22,370 nt of DNA. Source: a virus. A program made the translations under genes and the position numbers. The stretch spans positions 1 through 22,370 of IMG/VR virus record IMGVR_UViG_3300031759_000151, one strand, 5' to 3'. The notes beneath the pieces are model-generated. The model saw only the letters and a list, made by a program, of their open reading frames with translations. It did not search any database and had not been told where the DNA came from. Shown in pieces: positions 1 through 16,200 of the stretch (positions within the stretch are counted from its first letter, which is position 1; every line of letters starts with the position of its first letter).

Positions 1-3000
1 ATAAACTATATACGCGAAGACTTGATGTAGAAATATAATCAACATTTACGGTTGATGATCCAGTATATACCATAGTTGCTGGTGTTGAGGTTGATGTGCC
101 AAAAATCGACACTAAGTTGCCAGAAGATCCAGAGACAGAAAATGCTCCAACCGACTGTATGGTTGTGCCCAGATTTAACGACCAGATACCAGTTCTAGAT
201 GAAGAAATAGCAGAGAATGTATTATTTCCAGTTAATGCACTAGTTGAACTAAATCCTGATCCACCAAATGACAGTCCATTGTACGTCAAACTACCACCAG
301 TAAAGTTTGTGCCGCTGCCACCACTTAAGTTGATATTTGCTGATCCTTTATTAAAGGTAAGCCCTGTAGTAGTTGTTATTGTCCATGGTGTGGGATTTGA
401 TGTTAGTGACCATGTACCAGATCCCATAGACAATGTTCTAGAACTTGAACCAGCCGTACTGAATAATGAAGCAGTGACATTATATGATGCCGCATTAAAT
501 GTACCAGACGTAAGAACTAGAGAACTCGATATCGCTAAAGCATCCGCAAGTTGAACAGTTCCTGAAAATGAGTTTATTATGTATTGGTTTGTGCCAGTAT
601 AAGAAGCGCCGCCACTCGTTATTGTTTGAGTGCCTCTACCTGAGAATGTTAACTGACCAGAACCTGAGTATGTTGTGGCAGAACTTAACAACCAGTTTCC
701 ATATAGTGTTGGACCATTACTGATAGCAAAAGTCCAAGTATTGCTTCTTGTAGACATATCGACTGTGCCGATATTCCAAATGTTGTCCATTGTGATTGTT
801 GAAGATGTGTTTAATCCAGTATTCTGAATAATAGCTGTGTCTTGTGCTAGTGGAAAGTTAGCATCAGCAGGTGTACCACCAGAACTTGTTGCCCAAGGAA
901 CACCAGCTGCCCAAGAACCACCAGCAGTTAAACTCCAATATACAGTTTTTGGTGTTGATGCTGTTAAGCCACTATTGCCACCACAGTCTCCAATACTTGT
1001 ACCTGACCAAGTAGCGGCACCAGCACATTTGATATCGCGAAAGTCGATATTATTAAGGTTTGATACAGAAGCGGCAGTAATCGTGTACTGTGTTCCTAAT
1101 GTGCCACTGAATAAGAATATGCGTCTTGATGCACTATTAGTGCCTTGTGTGAATGTCAGAGTTCCGTTCACAGTTATATTAGACGATATGTTACACTGTT
1201 TATATCCTGTTGTTCCAGGATTCCACATGGTCAAGTTGTTGAATGTTACAGGAAAAATAGATTGATTCAAAGGAACAGAGATGCCTGAAGTCTGATCAGT
1301 AAACGCAACATTATAAAACGTTTGACCACCATGATAAAATGCGTTACTTGTTCCAGATATTGTTATAGTTGATGTACCAGAACTGAACGTTAAGTTAGTA
1401 GGATTTACTGTCGTAGATGAACCGGTAAAGTTGATGCTCGTTGTTAGATTGATAGCAGAAGCACCAAAGGATAATGATATAGGAGTTGTTGCTCCTGACG
1501 AATATGTTAATGTCAGAGTTGCACCAGTTAAAGTAAATCCAGCAGTGTTGAATGTGCCACTTGTTATTGTCAGTGTAGATGTGCCAATATTCAAAGCGGC
1601 AGTTAATGACCATGAACCTGTTGTGGCAAAAGTAATAGAACTTGCTAGAGTTTGTCCACAACTGATCGTTTTACCTGTGCCTGCACCACTAAACGTAATC
1701 GCACCGGTATATGTTCTACTTATTCCTGTAGATGCCATTGTAAAGTCGTGCGTGATACAAAGCTGTGCAGATCCTGCGAATACTAATGAACCAGATGCTG
1801 GTCCACTTACAGACAAGCTGTAGCAGCGTAATGGAGTTACCGATGATAGTGTTACAGAATATGCGGTTGCATTTGATGCGCTATTAAATATGACAGTATC
1901 AGCGGATGTGGGCACAGAAGCACCACCAGCGCCTCCAGATGTGGCCGACCAGTTAGCAGTCGCAGATGCCGTCCAGCTTCCTGTGCCGCCTACCCAGTAT
2001 CTTGTTACGGCAGCTGGAGCAGCGGTAAGAATAACACCAGAGCCTGTACTGTTTACACCAGCATAAAACTCAACAGGATTAGTGGCAGACATCGCTGTCG
2101 TACCCATTGTCAGATAATCAACGCCCGATACACGATCACCAAAAAGAGTGAGTGTTGTTCCCGTGACAGTTACAAGATTTCCTGACGTTCCTGTTACAGA
2201 CCACTTGCCAACAGATATTGTGCTGAATGATATTGTATGTGAAACTGTTTTTGTGGATGCAAGTTCTCCGTATGTATCTCCAGCACCCAAAGTGGTTGTG
2301 GATACACCAGTTGTACCACCAATAGTCAGTTTATTGTAATAAAATCCACCACCCGTAAATGTTCTTGCTGTTGTCGATGTATCAGATAGAACAATCGTAG
2401 ATGTGCCTGCATAATATGTTAAGCCTGTTGATGCAGTGTTCCAAACTGTTCCTGTTCCAGCTAACGTCCAAGTACCAGATCCCATATTCAACGTACGAGT
2501 TGATGTTGATGTGTTTACGAATCTGGTAGTTATTGTTGTGTTATATGATGAAGAGTTGAATCCACCGTTTGTGAGTGTGAGAAGATCAGTATTCAATGCA
2601 TCTGATTGTTGAACAGTTCCGTTTATATTAAATATAACGATACCATTACCACCACCGCTTATTGATATGCCATTGGATAATATCTGTTGTGTTGTATTGC
2701 GACCAGTAAAGTATGGATTAAATGCAGATGGAGATACTACACCTGTACCAAGTTTTAGATTTCCATTTATGAAAATGCTACCTGCAAATGTCACCGAACT
2801 TGTACGCGAAGAAACGTCTAATGTGCTTATATACCCGCCTGAAAAGTTGATTGTTGTAGCAGCGCCATTATTATCAATGATTGCCGTGTCTTGTCCAAGA
2901 GGAATATTATTTGCAGCAGGTGTACCACCAGAAGATGTTGCCCATCCAGTAGAGAACCAAGTTTGTGAACCAGTTAGATTCCAGTAAACAGTTTTAGCTG

Positions 3001-5083
3001 CGGGAAATGTAATACCACTATTACCTCCACAATCACCACCTCTTGTCACTGAAGTTCCTGCGGCTGCGCCCGTTAGTGTAATATCTCTAAAATCAATATC
3101 CGAAGGAGAAGAGAATGTAGTGACATTTAACACTGTTGGAGTTGACGTAGGGCTTGCTGATACCGAGGAAGCAGAAATAAACACTCTTCCTGTTGCTGAT
3201 GAACCACTAGCAGATAGTGTATTGATTGTCTGTATGCCGCCGCTAATAATGTATGATCTATAACCACCAGAACTGGGATTGTTGAGTGTTAGAGTTCCAC
3301 TATAGGTGAAAGCACCAGAAATAACTTGCCCGCCGTTGCTCATACTAACATTGTATAATGTCGCGCTTACACTACCATAGTTGGTAAGAGACGAGTTAAC
3401 AGAGGTAATATTAAGAGTAGAAGTTCCTGGATAAACTGTAAGTAATGGACCAGTATTAAATCCTGCACCAGAAATATAAGTCACTGTTATAGTACTGGAT
3501 CTAAGATATACGTTACAAGGAGCCACGGGTGTACTCGATGCACCCACGCTAAGTGTGGGAACACTGATCGAATATCCCTGAGTGTCAAACGTTCCCGACA
3601 CAATAGATAATGTTGGATTAGCACCAGAAGATATGCTAAACGCATCATTTAGTAGAAATGATCCACCAAACGAAGTAATGTTGATTGCTTGTGAGAACGA
3701 AACTCCAGCACTTGTAACAGATTGTGTGTTTCTACTAGCAAATGTCAATGATGCCGTTCCTGCTACAGTCACCGCAGAACTATTTTTCCAGTTCCCGTAT
3801 ACAGTAATGGGCGTTGTTGTATTTGTCAATGTCATAGCATTAGTTCTGCTAGACATGTCTATACTGCCTATCCACGCAAAAACAGTATCTAATGTAATAG
3901 TATTGCCTGTAGTCAGTCCCGTATTGTCAATGATTGCGGTGTCTTGCGCAAGAGGAAAGTTTGAAGCGGCTGGTGTGCCACCAGAAGATGTTGCCCAAGC
4001 ATTTGAAGACCAGTTACCGCCAGCAGTTAAACTCCAATATACAGTTTTTGGTGTTGAAGTTGTAATACCCAGATTGCCTCCAAGATCCCCTATACGTGTG
4101 CCCGAAATAGGAGAAGCTGTGCCATTTACAATGATATCTCTGAAATCGGCATCAGTTAAAGATGCTGCACTATTACATGTCAATATCAACTGAAAACCAT
4201 AAACAGTAGTTTGAAACCACACTCTTTGATTGCCAGCAGTGCCTGTCGTAGTTAAAGCGCCGCTGATAGTCTGGTTAGAAGAAAAACTAGCTATTCTATA
4301 TCCAACAACCGATGGTGCAGTATATGATAGATTGTAAAACGTATTTTGGCCTGAGATATTGGTTGAAACCGCAGATGTTGTTACGGCTGTAGGAAATGCA
4401 ACGTTATAGAACGTTTTGCCGTTTCCATTAAAAGAAATAGATCCATTAAACGTACAGTTGATCTGAGATGTGCCTGCGTTTAATACTCCCGCTGATCCTA
4501 GAGATAAAGGCGTTGCTGCGGGCAAAGTTACTGTGGATGCATTCAGGTTCAATATTGCTGTAGCAGAACTAGAAATCGTTAAAGTTCCAGCTATAGTTAA
4601 AGCATAGTTACCTGTAGACGATGTATCGAATGTTCCTGCGTTTACTGTAAAAGCTGTTGTTGATGTTGTTGTAAGCGAACTACCAAGAGTCCAATATCCA
4701 CCAGATCCGTTAAATGTAAATGCAGCAGCAAATGCTGTGCCATTTGTTGTGATTGTATTTCCTGTAGTTGTCGAAATGAATGTAATAAGTCCAGTGGCTG
4801 ACCAAGTAGGAGTTATATTGGTAATATTCATACTACCAGAAATAGTAAGCGTACCTGTGCTTGTAAATGTGGGCGCGCCAGCAGATATGTTGATGTTGAG
4901 GCACGTCAAAGCGCCTGACATAGTGACAGTATAAGTGCCACCTGAACCACTATCAAAGAATACTGTGTCAGCCGCAGTAGGAACAGTTCCAGTACCACCT
5001 GTGCCACCAGACGAACTTGCCCAGTGTGTGGTTGTAGAAGTATCCCAAGTACCTGTTCCTCCTACCCAATAAATATTGGCCAT
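1..5083 (-). CDS. Giant modular adhesin or tail-fibre protein, 3' end outside window
   Basis: I read this frame codon by codon from an ATG at 5083-5081 to the left edge: 1694 codons with no stop, so the C-terminus lies outside. The start follows the stop of the upstream 99-residue gene by 3 bases (TAATAAATG), with a weak AGAAAG site. The protein begins MANIYWVGGTGTW and consists of about five modules of 330-353 residues. Each opens with a YW(V/S)(G/L)T-x-G-x-W motif (Trp at residues 6, 350, 701, 1030, 1383). Several then have ATSSGGTPA, a PLAQDTAII-like segment and GTFDT/GTFNA strands, and three close with DFRDI followed by GD(C/L)GGN. The composition is Ser/Thr/Gly/Asn-rich and poor in charge, typical of beta-helical or beta-sandwich surface proteins. 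I infer a virion-attached receptor-binding or surface-adhesion role from its place after the fibre gene; no enzymatic motif is seen. Similar modules occur, as I recall, in environmental phages and bacterial adhesins. Confidence is high that it is a real gene, moderate for function. Confidence 0.85.
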   Translation of the reverse strand, partial: MANIYWVGGTGTWDTSTTTHWASSSGGTGGTGTVPTAADTVFFDSGSGGTYTVTMSGALTCLNINISAGAPTFTSTGTLTISGSMNITNITPTWSATGLITFISTTTGNTITTNGTAFAAAFTFNGSGGYWTLGSSLTTTSTTAFTVNAGTFDTSSTGNYALTIAGTLTISSSATAILNLNASTVTLPAATPLSLGSAGVLNAGTSQINCTFNGSISFNGNGKTFYNVAFPTAVTTSAVSTNISGQNTFYNLSYTAPSVVGYRIASFSSNQTISGALTTTGTAGNQRVWFQTTVYGFQLILTCNSAASLTDADFRDIIVNGTASPISGTRIGDLGGNLGITTSTPKTVYWSLTAGGNWSSNAWATSSGGTPAASNFPLAQDTAIIDNTGLTTGNTITLDTVFAWIGSIDMSSRTNAMTLTNTTTPITVYGNWKNSSAVTVAGTASLTFASRNTQSVTSAGVSFSQAINITSFGGSFLLNDAFSISSGANPTLSIVSGTFDTQGYSISVPTLSVGASSTPVAPCNVYLRSSTITVTYISGAGFNTGPLLTVYPGTSTLNITSVNSSLTNYGSVSATLYNVSMSNGGQVISGAFTYSGTLTLNNPSSGGYRSYIISGGIQTINTLSASGSSATGRVFISASSVSASPTSTPTVLNVTTFSSPSDIDFRDITLTGAAAGTSVTRGGDCGGNSGITFPAAKTVYWNLTGSQTWFSTGWATSSGGTPAANNIPLGQDTAIIDNNGAATTINFSGGYISTLDVSSRTSSVTFAGSIFINGNLKLGTGVVSPSAFNPYFTGRNTTQQILSNGISISGGGNGIVIFNINGTVQQSDALNTDLLTLTNGGFNSSSYNTTITTRFVNTSTSTRTLNMGSGTWTLAGTGTVWNTASTGLTYYAGTSTIVLSDTSTTARTFTGGGFYYNKLTIGGTTGVSTTTLGAGDTYGELASTKTVSHTISFSTISVGKWSVTGTSGNLVTVTGTTLTLFGDRVSGVDYLTMGTTAMSATNPVEFYAGVNSTGSGVILTAAPAAVTRYWVGGTGSWTASATANWSATSGGAGGASVPTSADTVIFNSASNATAYSVTLSSVTPLRCYSLSVSGPASGSLVFAGSAQLCITHDFTMASTGISRTYTGAITFSGAGTGKTISCGQTLASSITFATTGSWSLTAALNIGTSTLTITSGTFNTAGFTLTGATLTLTYSSGATTPISLSFGASAINLTTSINFTGSSTTVNPTNLTFSSGTSTITISGTSNAFYHGGQTFYNVAFTDQTSGISVPLNQSIFPVTFNNLTMWNPGTTGYKQCNISSNITVNGTLTFTQGTNSASRRIFLFSGTLGTQYTITAASVSNLNNIDFRDIKCAGAATWSGTSIGDCGGNSGLTASTPKTVYWSLTAGGSWAAGVPWATSSGGTPADANFPLAQDTAIIQNTGLNTSSTITMDNIWNIGTVDMSTRSNTWTFAISNGPTLYGNWLLSSATTYSGSGQLTFSGRGTQTITSGGASYTGTNQYIINSFSGTVQLADALAISSSLVLTSGTFNAASYNVTASLFSTAGSSSRTLSMGSGTWSLTSNPTPWTITTTTGLTFNKGSANINLSGGSGTNFTGGSLTYNGLSFGGSGFSSTSALTGNNTFSAISSSRTGIWSLNLGTTIQSVGAFSVSGSSGNLVSIFGTSTSTPATMVYTGSSTVNVDYISTSSLRVYSL
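1..5083 (-). repeat. Five tandem ~345-residue modules within the adhesin gene
   Basis: Module starts, judged by the conserved YW motif, are at about 5083, 4039, 2986, 1999 and 940, giving spacings of 344, 351, 329 and 353 residues. Two flavours are visible: a YWVGGTG type (modules 1 and 4) and a TVYW(S/N)LT type (modules 2, 3 and 5). The junctions into modules 2, 3 and 5 share a DFRDI segment (about 4131-4154, 3081-3100, 1031-1051) followed by GD(C/L)GGN. The junction into module 4 instead has a VDYLTMG-type segment. A 38-base stretch is identical at 921-958 and 4020-4057. The last visible module is cut near its end by the window edge, so the total number is unknown. Confidence 0.8.
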
Positions 5084-5396: not shown

Positions 5397-8300
5397 TTAG
5401 AATCCAAAGTTCTTAGCAAGAAGTTGCCAAGTTGATGTTGTAGAGTTATATATAAAGCCTAGATAATCGTGCTTACTTGATCCTGACAATGCTGATGGCA
5501 ATGGTAGATCGGTTGAACCCGCAAACTGTGCCTGAAAAGAAAGTGTTTGTGAGTTTGTTGTCTGTATTCTGAATACTAGTTGTTGCCCATTAATGGGAGT
5601 ACCAGTTGTATTCGCAATAGTGAATGTGCCAGTTGATCCTGTATATATCATTGTTGCAATATCTGTAGAGTCAGTATTTGCAGTAAACGTTGAAGAGTTA
5701 GCATATGAGACAACGCGCTTAGACGAACTTGCTGTACTCCAATAAACGTTACCTGTACCTGATGATGTTAGCACCTGCCCGCTAGTACCTGTAGAACCGT
5801 TTGCAGAAATACCAATACCAGTATTTACAACAATCGCAGTATTCGTAATACGCATTCTTTCATTAGTAGCAAGTGTGCCGCCAGTGAAAAAGTTTATATA
5901 AGAAGTAGCACCAGCAGTCCCTACAGAAAGATTGGTGTTACCAGTATACAAGTATCCATCTGAAGGACCATTGATTGTCCAAGTAGACTGACTAAATCCA
6001 TTGCCATTAATACCAACGTCAATGTAGTTACTGCTAGTAGGCTCAGGTCCTAATGTATCATTGACAATAAAATCGCCTGAAGCATTGTTACCTGTATTCG
6101 CATTCCATATCACAACTTCAGCAAATGTATTGGAGTTTAAAGCAAACTCTGCAAGCGAACTGTCGGTAGAGTTAAATCCGATTACCACATTTGTAGTAGT
6201 ATTGCCTGTTACGATGAATGTAGAGTTTACAAGAGATTGCGCTGTTGCAGTACCATATGCACCCGTTTGATAGACTGAAGCATTGACCGTGCCAGTAGAA
6301 TATACGTTGACAACACTAATGTTGGCATTAAACGTCTGATTCGCAGTAAAGGTATTTGTGTTTGACCAAAATACAACGTTAGCAGGCAACTGTGCATAAG
6401 GCAGAGTACCAGTTGAAATGTTTGTAGCATTGGTATAATAAGAAGCAAGCTGACCATTCAGATATGTTGTATTATTTGATGTCAGAGTAGCTACGTTAGC
6501 GGCAAGACCAGCTACAGTTTGGAATGTGCTATTAACATATGAGTTACTAGCAGCGTATGCATATATTGCCGTGTTTTGGGCAAATGTAGAGTATACAGCG
6601 GTATTCTGTGCAAAAGTTGAGTTGACATATGTGTTACTTGCCGCATATGCGTAGATTGCTGTATTCTGTGCAAATGTGCTATAGACTGTAGTGTTTGGTG
6701 TATAGTTTAAAAGATTTGCTTGCAACTGTGCATTAGATACAACATTAGCAGCAGATACAGAACCAACAAAACTGGTATTGTTCGACGTCAGAGTAGCAAC
6801 ATTAGAAGATAAACCAGCCACAGTCTGGAATGTGCTATTAACATAAGCATTCGAAGCAGCATAAGTGTATATCGCAGTGTTTTGAGCAAACACCGAGTAT
6901 ACAGAAGTGTTTTGAGCAAATGTGCTATAGACTGTTGTGTTAGGCGTATAGTTTAAAAGATTTGCTTGAAGTTGTGCATTAGATACAACGTTTGCTGCCG
7001 GCAATGTGCCTATATAGTTTGCAGCATTGGCAGTACCATTGATCACTTGTGTGAATGTTATGGTGTTTGAAAATGTATATTGAGCAGAAACGTTTAAGCC
7101 AATGACTGTAGACCAATAAACGTTACCAGTACCATTAGAAGTCAATACTTGACCTACGGTACCTTGTGAACCAGTAGTATCAATGATCGCAGCACCAGAT
7201 GCAATAGTCAAGTTTGCTGTTGATGTTAATGCAAGATTTGAGGTTGCTACGTATGTCGCTGCGTTGACCGTCCGGCCAAATATCGTATTAGAAGAAATAG
7301 CAGTGGCGTATATATTCCATGCTGCGTTTGCATAACCCAGATTTAGATTGTTCGAATATGGAACAAATGCTACGTTAGATTGCCATGCAGGATAAGAAGA
7401 GTTGTATACAAGGTTAGCACTAGTGCCAATAATAAGCCCAGAGTTATTTGCTAATGTATTTGTAGAAGCACTATTCGCAAGAATAATATTTAAGTCATTT
7501 GTGGTGATCACTGTTGCATTGATGAACGTGGTTGATCCAGCAAGTGTTAGATTGCCAGTAACAGTCAAGTTGCCTGATACGGTAGCACCACCAGAAATGC
7601 TTAGGTTCGATCCAGCGACTACACCAGTATAGGTAGGAAGATATGCTGCAATGTTAGCGTTTAGACCAGATGTAGTCTGGTATCCCGCTAGGTTTGATTG
7701 GAGTTGCGTATTAGAGACAACATTAGCAGCAGACACAGTACCAACAAAGTTTGTGTTATTTGAAGTGAGTGTCGCGACATTTGATGCTAAACCAGCAATC
7801 GTTTGAAAAGTTGAGTTCACATATGCATTACTAGCTGCATAAGCATAGATGGCTGTATTCTGAGCAAACGTTGAATAAACTGTTGTGTTAGGCGTATAGT
7901 TTAAAAGATTTGCTTGCAACTGTGCATTACTAACTACATTTGCGGCAGTAACCGTACCAACAAAGCTTGTGTTATTTGAAGTGAGTGTTGCAACATTAGC
8001 AGACAAACCAGCCACAGTCTGGAATGTGCTATTAACATAAGCATTCGAAGCAGCATAAGCATAGATAGCGGTGTTCTGTGCGAATGTAGAGTATACAGCC
8101 GTATTGCTAGCCGCATAAGCTACAGCATTCGAATATGCTGTTCCTGCAATAGTTGCCGCATACGTCACAGCATTTGTATATGCCGTAGCAGCATTCGCCG
8201 TAATCAAACTGTTGACTGCGGTGTTTTGTGCAAACGTGCTATAGACTGTGGTATTACTCGCGGCATAAGCATAGATAGCAGTGTTCTGAGCAAATACGCT

Positions 8301-9200
8301 ATATACCGCAACATTCTGCGCGAATGTCGAGTAAACTGTTGTATTGGGTGTATAGTTTGCCAGATTTGATTGAAGTTGTGTGTTCGATACCACATTAGCA
8401 GCAGACACAGTACCGACAAAGTTTGTGTTATTTGACGTTAGAGTAGCTACGTTTGCAGACAAACCAGCCATAGTCTGGAATGTAGAGTTCACATAACTAT
8501 TTGAAGCTGCGTATGTATAGATAGCTGTGTTTTGCGCGAAGACAGAATAAACACTAGTATTCTGAGCAAACGTTGAATAAACTGTTGTATTGGGTGTATA
8601 GTTTAACAGATTTGCCTGAAGTTGTGCGTTGGAAACAACATTAGCGGCTGTTACAGAACCTACAAAGTTTGTGTTGTTCGATGTCAGAGTAACAACATTT
8701 GATGCTAGACCAGCCATAGTCTGAAATGTGCTGTTCACATAACTATTTGATGCAGCATATGCCACAGCATTGGTATAAGCAGCAGCGGCATTTAATGTGA
8801 TGCTGTTTTGTATCGCAGCTAGTGTTACACCACCAAGATAGTTGGCATTATTTGATGTTAATGTTGCAATATATGTCGGATCAACGAACGTTCCTGAAGA
8901 GTTGGCAATAATGCCACTATTCGCAACAACAAATAAGACATTAGATGTTAAACTTAGACCATTGCCTGCCGTAAAACTAATACCACTGCCGCTGCTATTT
9001 GCCCAATAAATGGTAGATCCATTAGACGTTAGAACTTGACCGTTTGAGCCAACAGTTCCATTAGCAGAAATCGCATTGATTGTTACTGTACCGAAATCGG
9101 TAATCAATACTGGTTCGTTCTTCAGTACAATAGGTGTTGCGTTAGTGGTAAATCTTATGTTTGTTGAAGTAGCACCACTTATGGATACATTAATAGGCAT
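5397..9200 (-). CDS. Repetitive tail fibre protein (1267 aa)
   Basis: The start ATG at 9200 overlaps the upstream Ig-like gene by 11 bases. A short N-terminal region ends in a GQVLTSNGSTIYW motif; close copies of it recur near residues 690 and 1140. Two repeat blocks (about residues 167-523 and 724-924) are built from ten-residue units such as NTTVYSTFAQ. These are joined by AANVVSN-QLQ-NL and VATLTSNNT-FVG segments. Between the blocks lies a fibre module with GNLTVTGNLTL, DLNIILANSA and NLNLGYANAAWNIYA, a type widespread in aquatic phage fibres. The C-terminal third has SNYIDVGINGNG, INGPSDGYLYTGN and ERMRI. The final ~105 residues (NTTGTPINGQQL, HDYLGFIYNSTTSTW) match a beta-rich C-terminal domain seen in many phage fibres. 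There is almost no charge except near the C-terminus. A shaft with a distal binding head is the natural reading; trimerisation is inferred. Confidence 0.93.
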   Translation of the reverse strand: MPINVSISGATSTNIRFTTNATPIVLKNEPVLITDFGTVTINAISANGTVGSNGQVLTSNGSTIYWANSSGSGISFTAGNGLSLTSNVLFVVANSGIIANSSGTFVDPTYIATLTSNNANYLGGVTLAAIQNSITLNAAAAYTNAVAYAASNSYVNSTFQTMAGLASNVVTLTSNNTNFVGSVTAANVVSNAQLQANLLNYTPNTTVYSTFAQNTSVYSVFAQNTAIYTYAASNSYVNSTFQTMAGLSANVATLTSNNTNFVGTVSAANVVSNTQLQSNLANYTPNTTVYSTFAQNVAVYSVFAQNTAIYAYAASNTTVYSTFAQNTAVNSLITANAATAYTNAVTYAATIAGTAYSNAVAYAASNTAVYSTFAQNTAIYAYAASNAYVNSTFQTVAGLSANVATLTSNNTSFVGTVTAANVVSNAQLQANLLNYTPNTTVYSTFAQNTAIYAYAASNAYVNSTFQTIAGLASNVATLTSNNTNFVGTVSAANVVSNTQLQSNLAGYQTTSGLNANIAAYLPTYTGVVAGSNLSISGGATVSGNLTVTGNLTLAGSTTFINATVITTNDLNIILANSASTNTLANNSGLIIGTSANLVYNSSYPAWQSNVAFVPYSNNLNLGYANAAWNIYATAISSNTIFGRTVNAATYVATSNLALTSTANLTIASGAAIIDTTGSQGTVGQVLTSNGTGNVYWSTVIGLNVSAQYTFSNTITFTQVINGTANAANYIGTLPAANVVSNAQLQANLLNYTPNTTVYSTFAQNTSVYSVFAQNTAIYTYAASNAYVNSTFQTVAGLSSNVATLTSNNTSFVGSVSAANVVSNAQLQANLLNYTPNTTVYSTFAQNTAIYAYAASNTYVNSTFAQNTAVYSTFAQNTAIYAYAASNSYVNSTFQTVAGLAANVATLTSNNTTYLNGQLASYYTNATNISTGTLPYAQLPANVVFWSNTNTFTANQTFNANISVVNVYSTGTVNASVYQTGAYGTATAQSLVNSTFIVTGNTTTNVVIGFNSTDSSLAEFALNSNTFAEVVIWNANTGNNASGDFIVNDTLGPEPTSSNYIDVGINGNGFSQSTWTINGPSDGYLYTGNTNLSVGTAGATSYINFFTGGTLATNERMRITNTAIVVNTGIGISANGSTGTSGQVLTSSGTGNVYWSTASSSKRVVSYANSSTFTANTDSTDIATMIYTGSTGTFTIANTTGTPINGQQLVFRIQTTNSQTLSFQAQFAGSTDLPLPSALSGSSKHDYLGFIYNSTTSTWQLLAKNFGF
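6430..7030 (-). repeat. Tail fibre shaft repeat block 2
   Basis: Encodes roughly residues 724-924, a second run of the same decapeptide and AANVVSN modules after the central non-repeat domain. It begins with LPAANVVSN and ends at a LNGQLASYY segment. The 55 bases at 6811-6865 are identical to 8005-8059 in block 1, and 38 bases at 6931-6968 are identical to 7879-7916. Confidence 0.85.
7630..8700 (-). repeat. Tail fibre shaft repeat block 1
   Basis: Encodes roughly residues 167-523 of the fibre. It holds four copies of an AANVVSN-QLQ-NL segment, three of them followed by a TPNTTVYSTFAQ start and runs of ten-residue units (NT-x-VYS-x-FAQ, NTAIYAYAAS, N-x-YVNSTFQT), then VATLTSNNT-FVGT. Copies differ in the number of decapeptide units. 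Some are nearly identical in DNA while others differ at many synonymous positions. Confidence 0.85.
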
Positions 9201-9552
9201 ATGGATACGTTACCCCTGAAAGCTGTGTCACTTCTGGAGTTACTGTCAAGATTCCTTCGACTACACGGGTAATCACGTTAGCAGAACTGAGGGTGATTAC
9301 GTCATATACGTATCTACCATAATACATTCCAGCAGTTGTATTTGCATCCAATGATAGTTGAATGATTCCGTTGTTTGGCTGAGGAATGGTCGCTGCAAAA
9401 CTAATCGAGTTTGTAGATGTATACCAACGTCTGATCTGCGCTTGAACAGTAGTACCTTGTAGATTAATAGGTTGCCCGTTATCATCAGTCAAGTTCAATG
9501 TCGTATTGAACGTTGTGCCTTGATCTAAAATGATGTCTGCTTTAGCTGCCAT
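9190..9552 (-). CDS. Ig-like baseplate or fibre-adaptor protein (120 aa)
   Basis: The ATG at 9552 is preceded by GGGGAAG, a good ribosome binding site, and by a T4-type late promoter box at 9575-9582. The protein reads as a single beta-sandwich: a DQGTTFNTTLNLTDDNGQPI start, a V-A-QIRRWYTST strand, NGIIQLSLDANTTAGM, then YVYDVITLSS and VVEGILTVTPEVT at the end. This pattern is common in small proteins encoded beside tail fibres in cyanophages and other aquatic phages. It resembles the N-terminal domain of upper baseplate proteins that hold receptor-binding proteins, but that link is inference. Its 3' end overlaps the fibre gene start by 11 bases, which suggests translational coupling and a role in docking that fibre. 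Confidence 0.88.
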   Translation of the reverse strand: MAAKADIILDQGTTFNTTLNLTDDNGQPINLQGTTVQAQIRRWYTSTNSISFAATIPQPNNGIIQLSLDANTTAGMYYGRYVYDVITLSSANVITRVVEGILTVTPEVTQLSGVTYPYAY

Positions 9553-9574
9553 AACACTTCCCCGTCTTTTGTTT

Positions 9575-9582
9575 TATTTATA
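9575..9582 (-). promoter_or_regulatory. T4-type late promoter box TATAAATA
   Basis: On the minus strand the exact octamer TATAAATA directly follows the stop codon of the 190-residue gene and ends 22 bases before the start at 9552. In T4, late promoters are defined by this octamer at about -13 to -6 and are read by the gp55 sigma with the sliding clamp. By that spacing the transcript would begin near 9569 with a leader of about 17 bases that still holds the GGGGAAG ribosome binding site. It would drive the Ig-like protein, fibre, 99-residue protein and adhesin as one late unit. It lies in one of the few true intergenic gaps, so its match is not imposed by coding. Confidence 0.7.
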
Positions 9583-10155
9583 TCAGACAGACAGCGAAGT
9601 TCTTTCAAAGTTAACATTACCCGTAGTCTGTGTTGGCGATACTAGAAGATTGACATAACCAGAAGAGATATTGGCTGAGAAAGTGCCCATAACGCCATTA
9701 GTTTGTAACGTTGCGTATTCTGTAATAAAAACATTTGCTCCACCATCCTGTAAAACCATGATTTCGGTGCATTGGTGCCCAATACCCGTATCAATCTGAA
9801 GTAGATACTTTGCGCTACGAAAAGAAGTAAGTGGAAACTTGTCAACAATCTGATTTGCTGTGCCTGTCGTTAATACTGTTTGACCAGCAACATATGTGGC
9901 AGTGTTCATTGTGACATTGCTTGTAACAATAAGTGTGTTTGATACAGTATTGTTTCCGCCTTGAATGCTACCAAGTGCAATCAAAGTGTTGGCTGAAAAC
10001 TGTCCATTCACATAAGCATTACCTGAGGTGACACCAAGAGTTGAGTTTGCCGTTAAAATACTAAGTGACAAGTTCGCGCACAACTGATTCGTTGTCTGAA
10101 TCCAGTTATAGAATGTGCCTGTTGTGGTACTAACGTTAGCTGTTGCTATTGACAT
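9583..10155 (-). CDS. Beta-rich virion structural protein (190 aa)
   Basis: The ATG at 10155 lies inside the end of the upstream 76-residue gene (20-base overlap), so translation is probably coupled. The first ~100 residues are Asn/Thr/Ser-rich and fibre-like (GNAYVNGQFSANTLIALGSI, NTLIVTSNVTMN). The last ~90 residues form a compact domain: VDKFPLTSFRSAKYLLQIDT, then TEIMVLQDGGANVFITEYA, GTFSANISSGYVNLLVSPTQ and NVNFERTSLSV. This F-R-SAKY-x-x-Q / EIMVLQDG / ITEYA pattern is one I recognise from virion proteins of T4-like cyanophages, where it appears as a terminal domain of fibre or neck proteins. Its exact role is unknown; I infer a short fibre or baseplate-periphery protein. It ends in TGA right before the late promoter. 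Confidence 0.88.
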   Translation of the reverse strand: MSIATANVSTTTGTFYNWIQTTNQLCANLSLSILTANSTLGVTSGNAYVNGQFSANTLIALGSIQGGNNTVSNTLIVTSNVTMNTATYVAGQTVLTTGTANQIVDKFPLTSFRSAKYLLQIDTGIGHQCTEIMVLQDGGANVFITEYATLQTNGVMGTFSANISSGYVNLLVSPTQTTGNVNFERTSLSV

Positions 10156-10366
10156 CTTTATTTGCTACCAAAAGTTTGAGAAGATTTTTTATTTCATTAA
10201 CATCATTTGAAAGATCATCGATACGCTTATTTGTTTTTTCATTTTCAAGTAAACGATTGCGTTCTGTCAAATGCTGATTTAACTCGCCAATGTTTTTATT
10301 TATGATAGCACCCGTTCGTGAATCTCTGCATAGTCCAGGCACATTGGTCTGAATAAGAGTTTGCAT
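10136..10366 (-). CDS. Small coiled-coil protein (76 aa)
   Basis: Its ATG overlaps the stop of the upstream 764-residue gene by one base (TAATG), a classic coupling arrangement; the ribosome binding site itself is weak. The first ~25 residues contain CRDSRTGAIINKN. The rest is a charged helix, from GELNQHLTERNRLLENE to DDLSNDVNEIKNLLKLLVA, with regular Leu/Ile spacing that predicts a coiled coil. It is strikingly more charged than every neighbour. Small proteins with a D-x-x-(S/T)GAI-N segment followed by a coiled coil are, from memory, common hypothetical genes among T4-like phage structural clusters. A role in trimerising or chaperoning a partner is inference only. Confidence 0.82.
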   Translation of the reverse strand: MQTLIQTNVPGLCRDSRTGAIINKNIGELNQHLTERNRLLENEKTNKRIDDLSNDVNEIKNLLKLLVANKDVNSNS

Positions 10367-12660
10367 TATGAACTTGTACCGATAGCAGTTAGACTTGCAA
10401 CACGAGGTGTTACCGAAGTGTTATTTGAAACCAACACAAGCTTGACTTGTAGAGTATCATATCCATCAACAGGTGTTAACGAAGTATTGTAATATCTTGC
10501 AATATTCTGATTTTGTGGATTATTAAATGTCTGTGATGGATCATTGATCAGATCGATATAATAACCAGGTTGACCGAGAATACTTGTGTTTGATACTGCG
10601 GTGTCAAGGGTTAGCACAGTATTACTGGTAACAGAAGTTACGGCAGCAATAACGTAGTTTGATGGAATAAGTGGATTCCAAATCTTGACAACACTATTGA
10701 CTGGGATTTCAGTACCAAAGTTAGTATTAGCGCCAGTCACTACCGCGTTTGCTGTAGCTGAGAATGCAACACCAACAGTCACAGAACCATTTGCTGTGTA
10801 TGCGCTTGGTGGAAATGCAGGAAGACCCCAACTCTGAGCAATATAGTTGTTGGTTACTGGTGAACTGACAGCATTAGATGATGCGTTTGCTGGATACAGA
10901 AGCGTCCATTCTTTTGCATTAAATCCATCTGAATCGTGTGAGTTGTAAATCTTTGCATAAGGCTGAACATATGTGCCAGCGGGAATATAAGAAATCGTTT
11001 GTACAACAAGATCCTGTGCAGGATAAGTCGAATCAAAGTTGATCTTGGTTGTGATGTGTCTAGACGCGGCTAAGCCAGAAGCAGGAGCAGTTTCACCAAC
11101 TAGTGTATTGTTGATTGTCACCGCGCTAGAATAAACGTCTAGACCCTCTGAGGTAACAACAGGGCTGCTATAGATAGAACCGCTAGTGTTTTGAGCGAGA
11201 GTGATGTTCAATACACCAGATTTATTTCTCACGCCGTAGAGTGTGTTAGTAGCTGCCAAAACTTCATGTGATCTTGATGCCACAACAGCGTTATAACCAG
11301 AAACTGTATTGTTTGCGTAGTTTACGGCTGCTTGCACTGGAGTTAGTGCATATGTGTTCGAACTTGAATATGCAAACTGAGAACTTAATGCATATGTTGC
11401 GTTTTGTGGAGTATTGATAACGATTTCTGGCTGAAACGATCCAACAGGAAAGTTAACAATAGATGAAATGTATGCAGTAGATCCCGTGAACTCACCAACA
11501 ACAGGCGTCAATGAATATACCTGAGCAGTACCAGTTGTGCCTGTAAATGAAGTTGAGACATTGATCGCTGAAGTATTGATGATAGCCGAGATTGTTGTGC
11601 CCGTAGTAATACCAGCAACGTTTGCAGTGATTGGCTGACCAACAAATAGATTTGTCGTTGATGACAATCCAGTATATTGATTATTGCCATTTGTCAAAGT
11701 AGCAGTAAAGTATGTTCCTCTATTAAAGAGGTAGTTTGAGTTTGATGCCGTCGAGTTGGACAGATACAAAACGTTAGCTGATTGGTTGTTATAATAAGAC
11801 ACACCAATAGGAGCAGTAAAGAAACTTGCTGAAGTGTTTGTGCTTGGAAAAGCCTGATCGACAGTCATTGTTGTATTATTGGCAATCGCAACAACATTAC
11901 GGACTAGATAAGTGTTCGCACTTGTATACACGATAAGCTGAGTATTAGTCGCGAATGTGTTTTGGAATGATGTTCCTGTTCCGATTACGGTATTGCTACC
12001 TGAACTGAATGCAACTGTACCAGTAAGATTTGCGACTAGAGGAAAAACTCTTTCGCCACCCAAGAATGAACCTGTTTGATTTGTGATAACAAAAAACTCA
12101 TAATCACCATTGACAAGTTGATATGTCGCGTTATTTGAACTAAACTGTGCAACACTAACACCATACTTCAACTGTGCATTATTGACAGGAGTAATGTTGC
12201 CACTATTGCCGTAATCAAATAGTTGCCCTGGTGTACCGCCAGCGAAGCCAGTAAACCCTGTGTTCTGTGCAGCGCCTACAATATCATTGCCTACTTGTGC
12301 AGTCCAAAGAATATATGCAGGGTCATCTGCTTGAACGTTGATAGCATATGTTTTTCCAGTATTTAACTGGAGTGGAGCAGGAAATGTAAAAGTTGTTTTA
12401 GTTGCTGATGTTGCATCTACGTTAATAGATGCATATGGAAGATTTGCAACCGAACCACTGAGAACAGAGTTGAATAGTGGCGCACCATTAGAATCTGTAG
12501 GCGAAACGCTGATCGTTACTGTTGGATTATTAATACCAGATGCATTGTTTGTAGCACTAGGTTGTGCCTGAAAATACAAATCAACGCTTGTCAGAAATAC
12601 CGTAGCACTCTGATTGACTGAGTTTGGATCCAAATAAAATGTTTGTGAGTTGATATACAT
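10366..12660 (-). CDS. Baseplate/fibre structural protein, C-terminal part of a split DUF4815-type protein (764 aa)
   Basis: The ATG at 12660 has AGGG about nine bases upstream and lies 22 bases after the preceding stop. The N-terminus (FYLDPNSV, then TVFLTSVDLYFQAQ) is followed by TFTFPAPLQLNTGKTYAINV and ILWTAQVG. That is the layout of a domain which, in the long DUF4815-type proteins of T4-like aquatic phages, lies well downstream of the N-terminus. The C-terminus has YVQPYAKIYNSHDSDGF, AKEWTLLY and, at the very end, YDTLQVKLVLVS and PRVASLTAIG, matching the usual end of those same long proteins. The middle is Asn/Thr-rich beta sequence with repeated G-x-F/V-x-G-T strands. I infer a peripheral baseplate or fibre component that works with the 1583- and 185-residue products. 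Confidence 0.9.
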   Translation of the reverse strand: MYINSQTFYLDPNSVNQSATVFLTSVDLYFQAQPSATNNASGINNPTVTISVSPTDSNGAPLFNSVLSGSVANLPYASINVDATSATKTTFTFPAPLQLNTGKTYAINVQADDPAYILWTAQVGNDIVGAAQNTGFTGFAGGTPGQLFDYGNSGNITPVNNAQLKYGVSVAQFSSNNATYQLVNGDYEFFVITNQTGSFLGGERVFPLVANLTGTVAFSSGSNTVIGTGTSFQNTFATNTQLIVYTSANTYLVRNVVAIANNTTMTVDQAFPSTNTSASFFTAPIGVSYYNNQSANVLYLSNSTASNSNYLFNRGTYFTATLTNGNNQYTGLSSTTNLFVGQPITANVAGITTGTTISAIINTSAINVSTSFTGTTGTAQVYSLTPVVGEFTGSTAYISSIVNFPVGSFQPEIVINTPQNATYALSSQFAYSSSNTYALTPVQAAVNYANNTVSGYNAVVASRSHEVLAATNTLYGVRNKSGVLNITLAQNTSGSIYSSPVVTSEGLDVYSSAVTINNTLVGETAPASGLAASRHITTKINFDSTYPAQDLVVQTISYIPAGTYVQPYAKIYNSHDSDGFNAKEWTLLYPANASSNAVSSPVTNNYIAQSWGLPAFPPSAYTANGSVTVGVAFSATANAVVTGANTNFGTEIPVNSVVKIWNPLIPSNYVIAAVTSVTSNTVLTLDTAVSNTSILGQPGYYIDLINDPSQTFNNPQNQNIARYYNTSLTPVDGYDTLQVKLVLVSNNTSVTPRVASLTAIGTSS

Positions 12661-12682
12661 TATAGCCCTATCAGATTAAATA

Positions 12683-13240
12683 TTAAGCGAACGTTCCAAA
12701 TCCTGGTCCCAAATGTGGATTTCTTATCAGAGGTATTGTTTGTGGTGTTGGTTGTGCGATAGTGATTGTCACCTGAGCAGTTGATGTACCATCTGCGCTA
12801 CTCAACAGGCCTATCTTATTACCAATCAGATTATTTATCAATGATTGTGTGGCGGTCACGTTAGTCCCAGTTGAAATGCCCGAGTTGTAGAAATAAGTGA
12901 AAGAGATTGCACCATTAGCATCTGTGATTAACTGATCACCAAGAACACCACCTGTCGGCTGACACATAGAAGAAACGTCTGTTCCGTTGAATGTGAATGT
13001 ATGAATAGTGTTTGGCTTCAATCCAGTAGCAGAAAGATTGAATGCTTGATTTGATGCGGTATAGTTGCTGGCACGAGCAAGTTGTTCTACAGCAACAGTT
13101 ACACCGAGTGGTGTTGTGAGTGGTGTATCTGGACCAATAGTTGGTGGAGTTATAATAGAACCTTGAGGTACAGCCAAGTTTGTGTACCCGTTTGGTAATC
13201 CTACAACACCATTAGTTACTGAGTAAATATAACCTGCCAT
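12683..13240 (-). CDS. Small structural protein, middle part of a split DUF4815-type protein (185 aa)
   Basis: I place the start at the ATG at 13240-13238 (MAGYIYSV), two bases after the TAA of the 1583-residue gene, with AGGA upstream in that gene's end. A reading from 13273 adds 11 residues but lies inside the previous gene with no better site. The core, ARASNYTASNQAFNLSATG followed by LKPNTIHTFTFNGTDVSSMC, then QPTGGVLGDQLITDANGAIS and a FYNSG segment, is the LKPNT...DG.DVT...C.PT module. In long DUF4815-type proteins this module occurs between the N-terminal domain and the C-terminal beta domains. Here it is a free-standing protein with its own start and stop. Its function is not known; a small beta-sandwich connecting larger baseplate parts is plausible. 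Confidence 0.87.
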   Translation of the reverse strand: MAGYIYSVTNGVVGLPNGYTNLAVPQGSIITPPTIGPDTPLTTPLGVTVAVEQLARASNYTASNQAFNLSATGLKPNTIHTFTFNGTDVSSMCQPTGGVLGDQLITDANGAISFTYFYNSGISTGTNVTATQSLINNLIGNKIGLLSSADGTSTAQVTITIAQPTPQTIPLIRNPHLGPGFGTFA

Positions 13241-13242
13241 TA

Positions 13243-16200
13243 TTATGTTCCTACTGCTTGTGCTGATGACCACAAGATTGTGCCGTTTGGATTATATATT
13301 ACCAATGCACCACCAGCAGCATCTGGAATAGTATTTGTGATTGACATAATGATAGTATGCTGACCAGCGGAAACTGAATGTGATGCGGTTTGTATAGTGT
13401 TATACGAAACGCCTGATATCAGAACAGTTGAGTCGAGTGTAACGCTGCCCGTATCATCTGCCGCAAACTGGAATGAATATGTACCAGTTGTTGGGAAGTT
13501 CACAACAGTTTGGAAAACATTTGTTGTAATATCATAACCAGAACCGATCCAGATTGCATATGAACGCAAGAATGAACTCCAGCCACCTAGATCCATACCA
13601 CTTGCACTACACAAGTACCAACCGGTTGATGGATATCCTAGTGAAGAATATGTCGTGCCTAGTGTTGATTGTACGTTTGTTAGAATGGTAAATGTTGCTG
13701 GTGATACTGACATTGTACCTGTATATGTCACTGGTGGTGGAACATATGCAGTAGAGTTAGTTGCAACCAACTGTTGAAATAGTGGCACAGAACTATACGG
13801 AAGCGTCAATAGTGAACCAGTAACACCGGATTGTGTGTCATCGGCAGTATCAAAGTTAAAGCCTACATTGTAAGAAGATACAGTTGCAACTACTTCGTTG
13901 TTAACAATCATTGTTGTGTTCTGTGGATTGTTCACATCGGTGTAGTTGTTGCTCTGAAAAGTATCAGCGAAGAAGCCATACTTGAAGCGATTGATAGCAC
14001 CATTGATTGATGATGGAATCGCTAGACCGCTTACGCTCTGTTCTAGTGCAGATAGACTTGCTTGTTGTTCTAGTGCAGCAATACGATTCGCAAGGCTATT
14101 GATATCAGACATAGTATAAACAAGTGGCTGACTGATTTGTGTATTTGTTGTAGAAGATGTTGGCACAGAAATCGTGTGATTTGCAACACGAGCAAATGAA
14201 TAGATTTCGTTAGCAACATGCTTATCAATAATATTTGTATAGTTCTGATCTAGCTTCTGTGGTACAGAAGGATATGGTGGAACGAATACTAGATTGATTG
14301 TCATCGTATTCGCTGGCTCAGCAGGTGGTACCAACTTAGTTGAACCAGGTGTGCCAGGAATAGAAACGATATTTGCCTTTGTATCAACTACTAGACGATC
14401 AACGCGACCCTGATAGTTCACAAGGTTTGCAGAGTGTGCGGTACCTGGTGTTGGGAACTGATACGAAGTGCTAAGTGGTTCTGTACCAAACTTGACAACT
14501 TCACCACTGAAGATTAGATTTGCTGAACCACTTGAAGTCGCGGCTGAAGAAATATTAATCGCAGTAGAGTTGACAATAGACACAACAGTTGCATCAACTG
14601 GAATGCCAAAGTTGGTTGCGAATACTGAAGTACCGACGGTGATTACAGATGTATTTGAGATAGCATTGACTGTTACGTTGCCGCTTGTCAATGTACCAGT
14701 TAGAATCTGTGTAGTCAATGCACCGTAGTCGATAGGATTGATTGTTGACTTGGCAGTATTAGCTACTGTAATACTAGCAGTATTTGCAATACTTGGTCTA
14801 AAATCAACATAATCGATTAGATCGTAGTAGTTGCCCTGACTGTCATACATCTCAGAGATTTCAAGAGTGTTGATATAACCACTTGAAGTTGCTGTAATGT
14901 TTGCATATGGTTGAGCATCATTTACTGGATATGAACTACGTGTATAGAAGCCACCACCAGTTTCAGTGAAGTGGTCAAACTGTACTACCAATGCATCTGT
15001 TGTATTGATTGCAAGCTGTGACGTTGGAGTTAAATGTAGATACCCCATATCATAGAAGTCTGGATTTTGTTTGTGATCAACATAGAAGTTTGTTGTGACA
15101 TCAATCCAAGTTGAAGGAATAGATGCAGAGTTTGCTACGTTTGCTGTAACAACTGTGCTACCAGAAATAACACTTGAAGCAGGTGCTTTATAGACTTTCT
15201 TCATACGGAAGATGTCTGGAAAGCCTAGTGCCCATGGACCAGTATTTGAGTTGACAGCATTTGCAACGTTGATTGCTACAGTGGTATCACGATTTGGTGT
15301 CTTTTGTGTGACTGACTGGCCAGTGGCATATACTGGTGTTACAATAGATACGTTTGATGATGTGGTGTTAATCGCTGCTCCAAGGTTGATGGAGAGTTTT
15401 GAACCATTCGCTGATACTGTGACTGAACCAGTAGGCAAAGCCACTGGTACGTTCTTTGGATAGAACACCACAACGTTTGCAGAAGTGTTTGCATTTGCTG
15501 GGAATGTATCAACAGTGATTGCACCACCACTAACATTAGCGGTTGCAACTCTCTTGATTTCTCCACCAGTATTTGAGTAGATTTTGAGATACTCGCCAGC
15601 ATAAAGTGATGATGTAGATCCAGCATTTACCGTAACGATTGTGTTAGATGTGCTGGTAATCAAAGTCAATGAACTTACGTTAGCATTTGCCTGTGCATTC
15701 GAACCGGTGAACACTAGACTTAGGTCTAGCATTTGATTATTTGATAGTGTCGCGCCATTACCGTATGGGAAGATTTCTCCAGCGCCAAGTTGTAATGTAA
15801 TAACACCCGAAGCAGCGTTAACAGCAACGTTAGATGTTCCTGTTGAGAACAAGCCTTGATAGTTGAACGAGTGGTTCGCAGTGCTTAAAACGTTATTTGC
15901 GCCAACTGGGAATAGCATTGTCGAGTTGGTGGCTGATGAAAGAATCGCAACGTTCGTTGAACTTATTGTTGGATTGCTTACGAGAACAATATCAGCAATA
16001 CCCTGGTTGATACCATTGTTATAATAAACAGATTGTGCGTTTAGAAAGTTCTTGCCAGGATATAGATCGATATCATAAAGATATAGCGAAGCAACATAGC
16101 TTGGGCTGCCTGGTGTTCCAGACTGTGGCACTAGCGAACGAATACGCGCTGTACCGATTGCGTTACCAACTGGTGTTGTATTACCTGATGAATAAGCAGC

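Follow-up and report, generated by a model that had tools for sequence, protein, structure and literature searches.

The subject of this analysis is a tail-fibre gene, P0001, found in a linear viral fragment of 22,370 bases from IMG/VR (record IMGVR_UViG_3300031759_000151; this whole stretch is called the window below), whose long genes lie on the minus strand. Its product of 1267 amino acids (aa) contains ten-residue repeats, or decads, nested in larger modules. It is very probable that P0001 encodes a modular fibre shaft that recombines. The best explanation of the data as a whole, which we hold with moderate confidence, is a shaft of composite modules in which each decad supplies two layers and the units recombine with one another.

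By the strict motif there are 25 decads in P0001; in 500 shuffled versions of the protein the average was 0.8 and no version had more than 4. They belong to three classes: 12 ..FAQ, 7 NTAIYxYAAS, and 6 NxYVNSTFQT. A first-pass annotation of the window had described about a dozen decapeptides in two blocks on either side of a non-repeat domain. The repeat is real and does lie in two blocks around such a domain (Table 1); the count is about twice as high, with the NxYVNSTFQT units sharing the register. The larger module was absent from that annotation. It consists of decads and a 52-aa core, NxYVNSTFQTxAGLxxNVATLTSNNTxFVGxVxAANVVSNxQLQxNLxNYTP. The order within a module is the core (NxYVNSTFQT...NYTP), then at least one NTxVYSxFAQ unit, and then NTAIYxYAAS as the passage to the following core. 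A module has 72 or 82 residues, hence the spacings of 216 and 246 nucleotides (nt). A simple tandem-repeat gene was rejected: Tandem Repeats Finder gives one 246-nt array only, with 1.8 copies.

The peptide is under purifying selection. Among the five full cores of the window, the pooled proportion of synonymous differences (pS) is 0.60, which is near saturation, and that of non-synonymous differences (pN) is 0.11. The ratio of non-synonymous to synonymous substitution rates (dN/dS), for which five window cores and two cores of the sister contig L004 were taken in, is 0.06-0.14 in nine of the ten pairs of window cores; for the tenth it is not computable, dS being saturated. Within the three decad classes pN/pS is 0.13-0.19. 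The earlier suggestions of synonymously diverged copies and of strong selection on the peptide are both upheld by this count, the ratio not being near one. The window copies differ by dS of 0.68 to saturation, compared with 0.21-0.36 for neighbouring genes between the window and L004. The copies are thus not generally homogenised, and most module copies of the window are therefore older than the split between the window and L004.

Within these old units lie patches that were copied recently. Three identical pairs of 55, 38, and 36 bases, reported at first reading, match letter for letter and in frame (Table 1). The longest exact repeat in the window fibre, 55 nt, exceeds the maximum of 38 nt in 2000 synonymous-codon shuffles, implying that tracts have been copied between old units. 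Four exact repeats reach at least 30 nt, a number attained in none of the 2000 shuffles. In a permutation test for concordant runs over 62 aligned residues, two of the ten pairs within the window are significant after Bonferroni correction (W386/W784, p 0.016; W386/W458, p 0.042). When three L004 copies are added, five of 28 pairs are significant after the same correction, and the lowest p among these five (0.007) belongs to W234/L175, which joins copies of different viruses. The partial window copies (aa 730s, 886) were set aside for this test, as were the L004 copies 268, 330, 552, and 795, which exit early from the core or lack its start. Exact tracts also exceed their own null maxima in L004 (91 vs 39 nt), L006 (87 vs 35 nt), L009 (57 vs 32 nt), and L011 (104 vs 39 nt).

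Two results speak against this reading. The L008 fibre has no excess of identical tracts (23 nt vs a null maximum of 32), and the near-identical contigs L002 and L003, which jointly span the window fibre, show zero differences or changes of length there (outside the fibre they differ from the window at one and three sites, respectively). This invariance argues against rapid change. The first-pass annotation had proposed ongoing local gene conversion. Local copying is borne out by the 55-nt tract and the run test. What is seen is mosaic identity, which does not single out gene conversion: the same pattern is expected from gene conversion, unequal recombination, segmental duplication, template switching, and exchange with other phages. 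The word "ongoing" finds no support in the invariant fibre of L002 and L003. A more mundane origin of the identical tracts, in assembly errors or plain codon bias, is hardly credible. Codon bias is rejected by the codon-shuffle null. Repeats are hard for short reads, and the L003 contig ends at window position 7854, where a 32-nt repeat adjoins (7855-7886 = 8557-8588), which looks like an assembly halted by the fibre repeats; L002 and L003 are nevertheless separate IMG/VR contigs that agree with the window throughout the fibre.

The shaft is wholly rearranged between the window and its sister virus. L004 is about 92% identical over window positions 8764-17198, and beyond this there are repeat-to-repeat matches only, the downstream part being unaligned. 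Collinearity stops at about fibre residue 148. dS between the two is 0.21 for fibre aa 1-140 and 0.22-0.36 for six neighbouring genes or gene parts. The L004 fibre has 906 residues, 18 decads, different inserted domains, and a different C-terminus. Tracts of 46 and 45 nt are common to both fibres at non-equivalent places, exceeding the maximum of 41 nt in 1000 shuffles. As units are alike in DNA, they may recombine with one another and also with the fibres that other phages carry. Such recombination would copy tracts, add or drop units, and re-dock the shaft to other domains. In the L004 fibre, six residues (AASNAY or equivalent) are missing next to Tyr codons in a fused unit at aa ~475-488, NTAIYAYVNSTFQT; this resembles an inter-repeat deletion.

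Decads are found in other viral fibres as well. The two-unit pattern NT-x-VY-x-x-FAQ-NT matches seven viral contigs. A looser two-unit pattern matches 19 viral stretches, eight of which are confirmed as decad fibres, including L002 and L003, which represent the population of the window. Six of the 19 are known loci, and translation of the 13 new ones gives two true arrays (L049, which is the contig of L010, and L050), one borderline case (L044), and ten unrelated sequences. The eight distinct decad fibres (window, L004, L006, L008, L009, L010, L011, and L050) hold 113 decads, whereas shuffled proteins hold 2.55 motifs per set. Wherever the spacing is at most 30 residues it is exactly 10 (85/85). 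The longest runs are 9 decads in L006, 9 in L008, and 15 in L009; with a looser motif the run in L006 is 10. It is conceivable, though we consider it doubtful, that several T4-like fibres, otherwise unlike one another, use the decad as an interchangeable spacer, with as many as 15 units in succession, and that recombination between units determines their length and tip.

Some of these fibres contain further repeats. In L050, a reverse-strand open reading frame (ORF) from position 3449 has a second decad flavour, YVNSTFATN, five times, running directly into STFAPLAGATFTG, which we take to resemble a start frequent in phage fibre domains. In L008 and L010 the decads stand behind Gly-rich stretches such as NGTNGTDGIG, and Pfam Collagen matches L010 below the cut-off (E 0.0016). 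The L009 fibre, with 1559 aa and 15 decads, has other short repeats in high copy number (VGNSTVNSV, LANVANLNTNVANS), forming a second repeat system.

In bacterial genome contigs, a three-unit DNA pattern matched eight stretches, none of them a tail fibre by translation, and a protein search gave zero matches. Origin from a host genome was rejected. Searches by tblastn with the whole fibre, a 152-aa shaft piece (threshold E 10), and an L010 shaft piece found no named phage, but such sequences are probably hidden by low-complexity masking, and the result does not show that named phages lack them. With the C-terminal piece there are two weak matches, the best to Methylophilaceae phage P19250A (37% over one-third of the query, E 1e-3).

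As for its structure, the shaft is built of composite modules, each with one to many in-register decads and a 52-residue core; like other phage fibres, it presumably consists of three chains wound around one another. A decad would most likely contribute two core layers to this trimer: a beta-layer of three residues with the invariant Val/Ile at its centre (x-V/I-Y/N), and then about seven helical residues (S-T-F-A-Q-N-T). We propose this ten-residue alpha/beta coiled-coil fold tentatively. Alpha/beta coiled coils have beta-layers at spacings of six and nine, as described by Hartmann et al. (2016, eLife; PMC4786415). Its examples are the nonads of Thermosinus Tcar0761, the OMP100 stalk, and the S. 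pyogenes prophage hyaluronidase fibre 2C3F. Its Table 2 lists the beta-layers YVT, FVT, YVS, and VYT, several of them followed by seven helical residues, and single ten-residue beta-beta-beta-efghijk stretches in the solved structures 2BA2, 2C3F, and 3PYW. From these layers with their seven helical residues, the decad can be understood as one beta-layer plus seven residues, repeated. The x-V-Y/N-S of the fibre resembles the listed layers, and, as we read the list, the core segment AANVVSNxQLQ may also resemble one of its beta-layer starts.

The hydrophobicity pattern of the decads points in the same direction. In six arrays, Asn1 is present in 51/51 decads and position 4 holds Val or Ile without exception. 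The 10/2 harmonic (5-residue period) is dominant on the Kyte-Doolittle and Fauchere-Pliska scales, so that the second harmonic expected of two core layers per repeat is seen on two of three scales; a solved nonad alpha/beta coiled coil, used as a control, also peaks at the second harmonic. In none of the six arrays does the 10/3 harmonic exceed 8% of the 10/2 power on Kyte-Doolittle, and on Fauchere-Pliska it is weak to moderate, reaching at most 0.23 of the variance for one consensus. A dominant 10/2 with a small 10/3 agrees with two core layers in each unit, but it does not fit a continuous 10/3 coiled coil. The latter, a continuous alpha-helical coiled coil of tandem stammers (10 residues in three turns) in which Asn would be the third residue of the core, is improbable. 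The Val4-Phe8-Asn1 spacing (4-3-3) could indeed occupy three core positions, and isolated decads are known, for example beside the N@d layer in OMP100 (PMC4786415). The hydrophobic stripe at 10/3 that it predicts is small on Kyte-Doolittle, and according to the same source 10/3 is the lower limit of accessible periodicities, where strain is taken up by 3-10 helix. An ordinary heptad coiled coil was rejected, there being no 3.5 peak.

Two AlphaFold runs on fibre fragments, based on alignments of 15 and 21 sequences, reached mean predicted local distance difference test (pLDDT) scores of 56 and 57. In both models, which are single-chain and of low confidence, the decads form helix with brief interruptions, several of which fall on or close to the invariant Asn, and helices extend across at least two units, as tandem stammers would also have it. 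Being of this kind, the models are weak evidence of the fold. They also bear on a beta-structured trimeric shaft of the triple beta-spiral or beta-helix type, in which the decad is made of short strands with a turn at Asn-Thr. Thr, Val, Tyr, Ser, and Asn are abundant in it, harmonics of 2.0-2.5 residues are not negligible on Kyte-Doolittle, and to our knowledge most viral fibre shafts are beta-rich. Such a shaft is nevertheless unlikely, as both runs are helical in the decads, if at low confidence, and the strongest period is 5 and not 2 on Kyte-Doolittle and Fauchere-Pliska. The low pLDDT could suggest that the decads serve as a flexible, disordered linker and owe their persistence to compositional bias. 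We give this very little credence, since linkers accept other indel lengths, while here 85/85 spacings are exactly 10, Asn1 is kept in 51/51 decads, and dN/dS is ~0.1.

Besides the quality of the models, several observations speak against the alpha/beta fold. The Wimley-White scale has no clearly dominant harmonic, and Fauchere-Pliska puts the first harmonic highest for the NTAIYAYAAS consensus. In the PDB nothing is found by sequence above chance (E 0.1 or worse), and fold searches with both low-confidence models give no match at E <=0.001. Known alpha/beta coiled coils have hexads or nonads, whereas the fibre period is 10, and the family consensus [aliphatic]-A-T-K-[polar]-[DE], as given in PMC4786415, is absent from the fibre. 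Because the spacing is neither that of hexads nor that of nonads, the decad fibre may work like an alpha/beta coiled coil and is not counted as a member. It shares with this class tandem short repeats, strict register, a fibrous nature, and two hydrophobic layers per repeat. Unlike the class, it lacks a sequence or fold match, and its trimer is presumed. If the fold reading is true, the decad would join hexads and nonads as a third period of this fibre class, and fibres of set length could be made from it as a short, self-contained repeat.

A recombining modular phage fibre shaft is a known type, and nothing is overturned here: recombining repetitive fibres are expected in phages. The ten-residue unit is unusual, and its length lies outside the stalk types of PMC4786415. 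No ten-residue fibre repeat of this kind was found among the papers listed by searches of open-access PMC literature, and a literature search for a name of the Asn-layer motif gave nothing relevant. P0001 has weak matches only in Pfam, PHROGs, and NCBIfam, below the cut-off where one exists; these include families named after animal viruses and toxins and are taken as chance. The initial remark that the repeat is not a nameable fibre-shaft repeat held across all database and literature searches. Saturated and identical units in one gene, together with the reshuffled sister shaft, form a natural record of fibre rebuilding while the neighbours stay collinear. A similar case is the hypervariability of the distal tail fibre in marine phages (metaviromic islands, PMC3909814), with a conserved N-terminal part next to a labile repeat shaft and C-terminal part. 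The fibre domains compared there are T7-like, from pelagiphage relatives, whereas here one decad recurs in several different T4-like fibres.

P0001 probably supplies the shaft of a receptor-binding fibre on the tail of a T4-like phage. Its position among T4-like tail genes and its modular build suggest a role like that of the long tail fibre gp34/gp37 of T4. Unlike gp34/gp37, P0001 has no Pfam, PHROGs, NCBIfam, or PDB sequence match, and no sequence homology to curated gp34/gp37-type long tail fibre families was found in Pfam, PHROGs, or NCBIfam; gp34 (5nxh) is a chance-level fold match only (E 4.5). A T4-like source is indicated by T4-type baseplate wedge families in the window (P0006 = phrog_438, E 1.5e-62; P0007 = phrog_17744, E 2.2e-80) and by gp23, the capsid protein of T4-like phages, which was sought only in related contigs. 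It is present in four of the nine contigs examined, those of L006, L009, L010, and L011; the five contigs without it are records of 13-36 kb. The C-terminal domain at ~aa 1022-1119 is common to fibres of many other viral contigs by tblastn and alignment.

Table 1. Features of the fibre gene in the window
Feature	Positions	Strand	Basis or remark
Tail-fibre gene P0001	5397..9200	(-)	ORF and translation; adjoins T4-like baseplate wedge genes
Conserved N-terminal part, aa 1-150	8751..9200	(-)	orthologous with L004 to ~aa 148; identity collapses at ~aa 149
Repeat block 1, aa 152-509, four modules	7674..8747	(-)	sequence repeats, motif
Core copy W152, 52 aa	8592..8747	(-)	
4-decad run, aa 204-243	8472..8591	(-)	
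Core copy W234, 52 aa	8346..8501	(-)	
4-decad run, aa 286-325	8226..8345	(-)	
Ala-rich spacer breaking up decads, aa 326-365	8106..8225	(-)	sequence
3-decad run, aa 366-395	8016..8105	(-)	
55-nt tract copy A, identical to 6811-6865	8005..8059	(-)	exceeds codon-shuffle null
Core copy W386, 52 aa	7890..8045	(-)	
Site common to 38-nt (7879-7916 = 6931-6968) and 36-nt (7894-7929 = 6700-6735) identical tracts	7879..7929	(-)	
3-decad run, aa 438-467	7800..7889	(-)	
Core copy W458, 52 aa	7674..7829	(-)	most diverged; end runs into non-repeat domain
Non-repeat domain between blocks, aa 510-732	7005..7673	(-)	sequence
Repeat block 2, aa ~733-917: partial core, one full module, start of third	6450..7004	(-)	sequence repeats, motif
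4-decad run, aa 754-793	6822..6941	(-)	
55-nt tract copy B	6811..6865	(-)	letter match
Core copy W784, 52 aa	6696..6851	(-)	
6-decad run, aa 836-895	6516..6695	(-)	
C-terminal part, aa 918-1267: shared domain, then end domain; presumed tip	5397..6449	(-)	tblastn to fetched loci, alignment

No Rfam match and no tRNA is found in the window. Directly upstream of the fibre gene (9190-9552, minus strand), a 120-aa protein matches phrog_1084 and phrog_3304 (annotated 'L-shaped tail fiber protein assembly'). Its relatives in L084 (56%) and L085 (52%) precede other fibres, in which no decads were noticed (the second fibre of L085 is cut and the L084 fibre was viewed in part). The gene next to the fibre gene on the other side (2-5083, minus strand; 1694 aa), which the window end truncates, also codes for a repetitive protein. 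It has three copies of 90-91-nt stretches, ~2050 and 1053 bases apart, coding for PKTVYWxLT...TSSGGTPAxxNxPLxQDTAIIxN.

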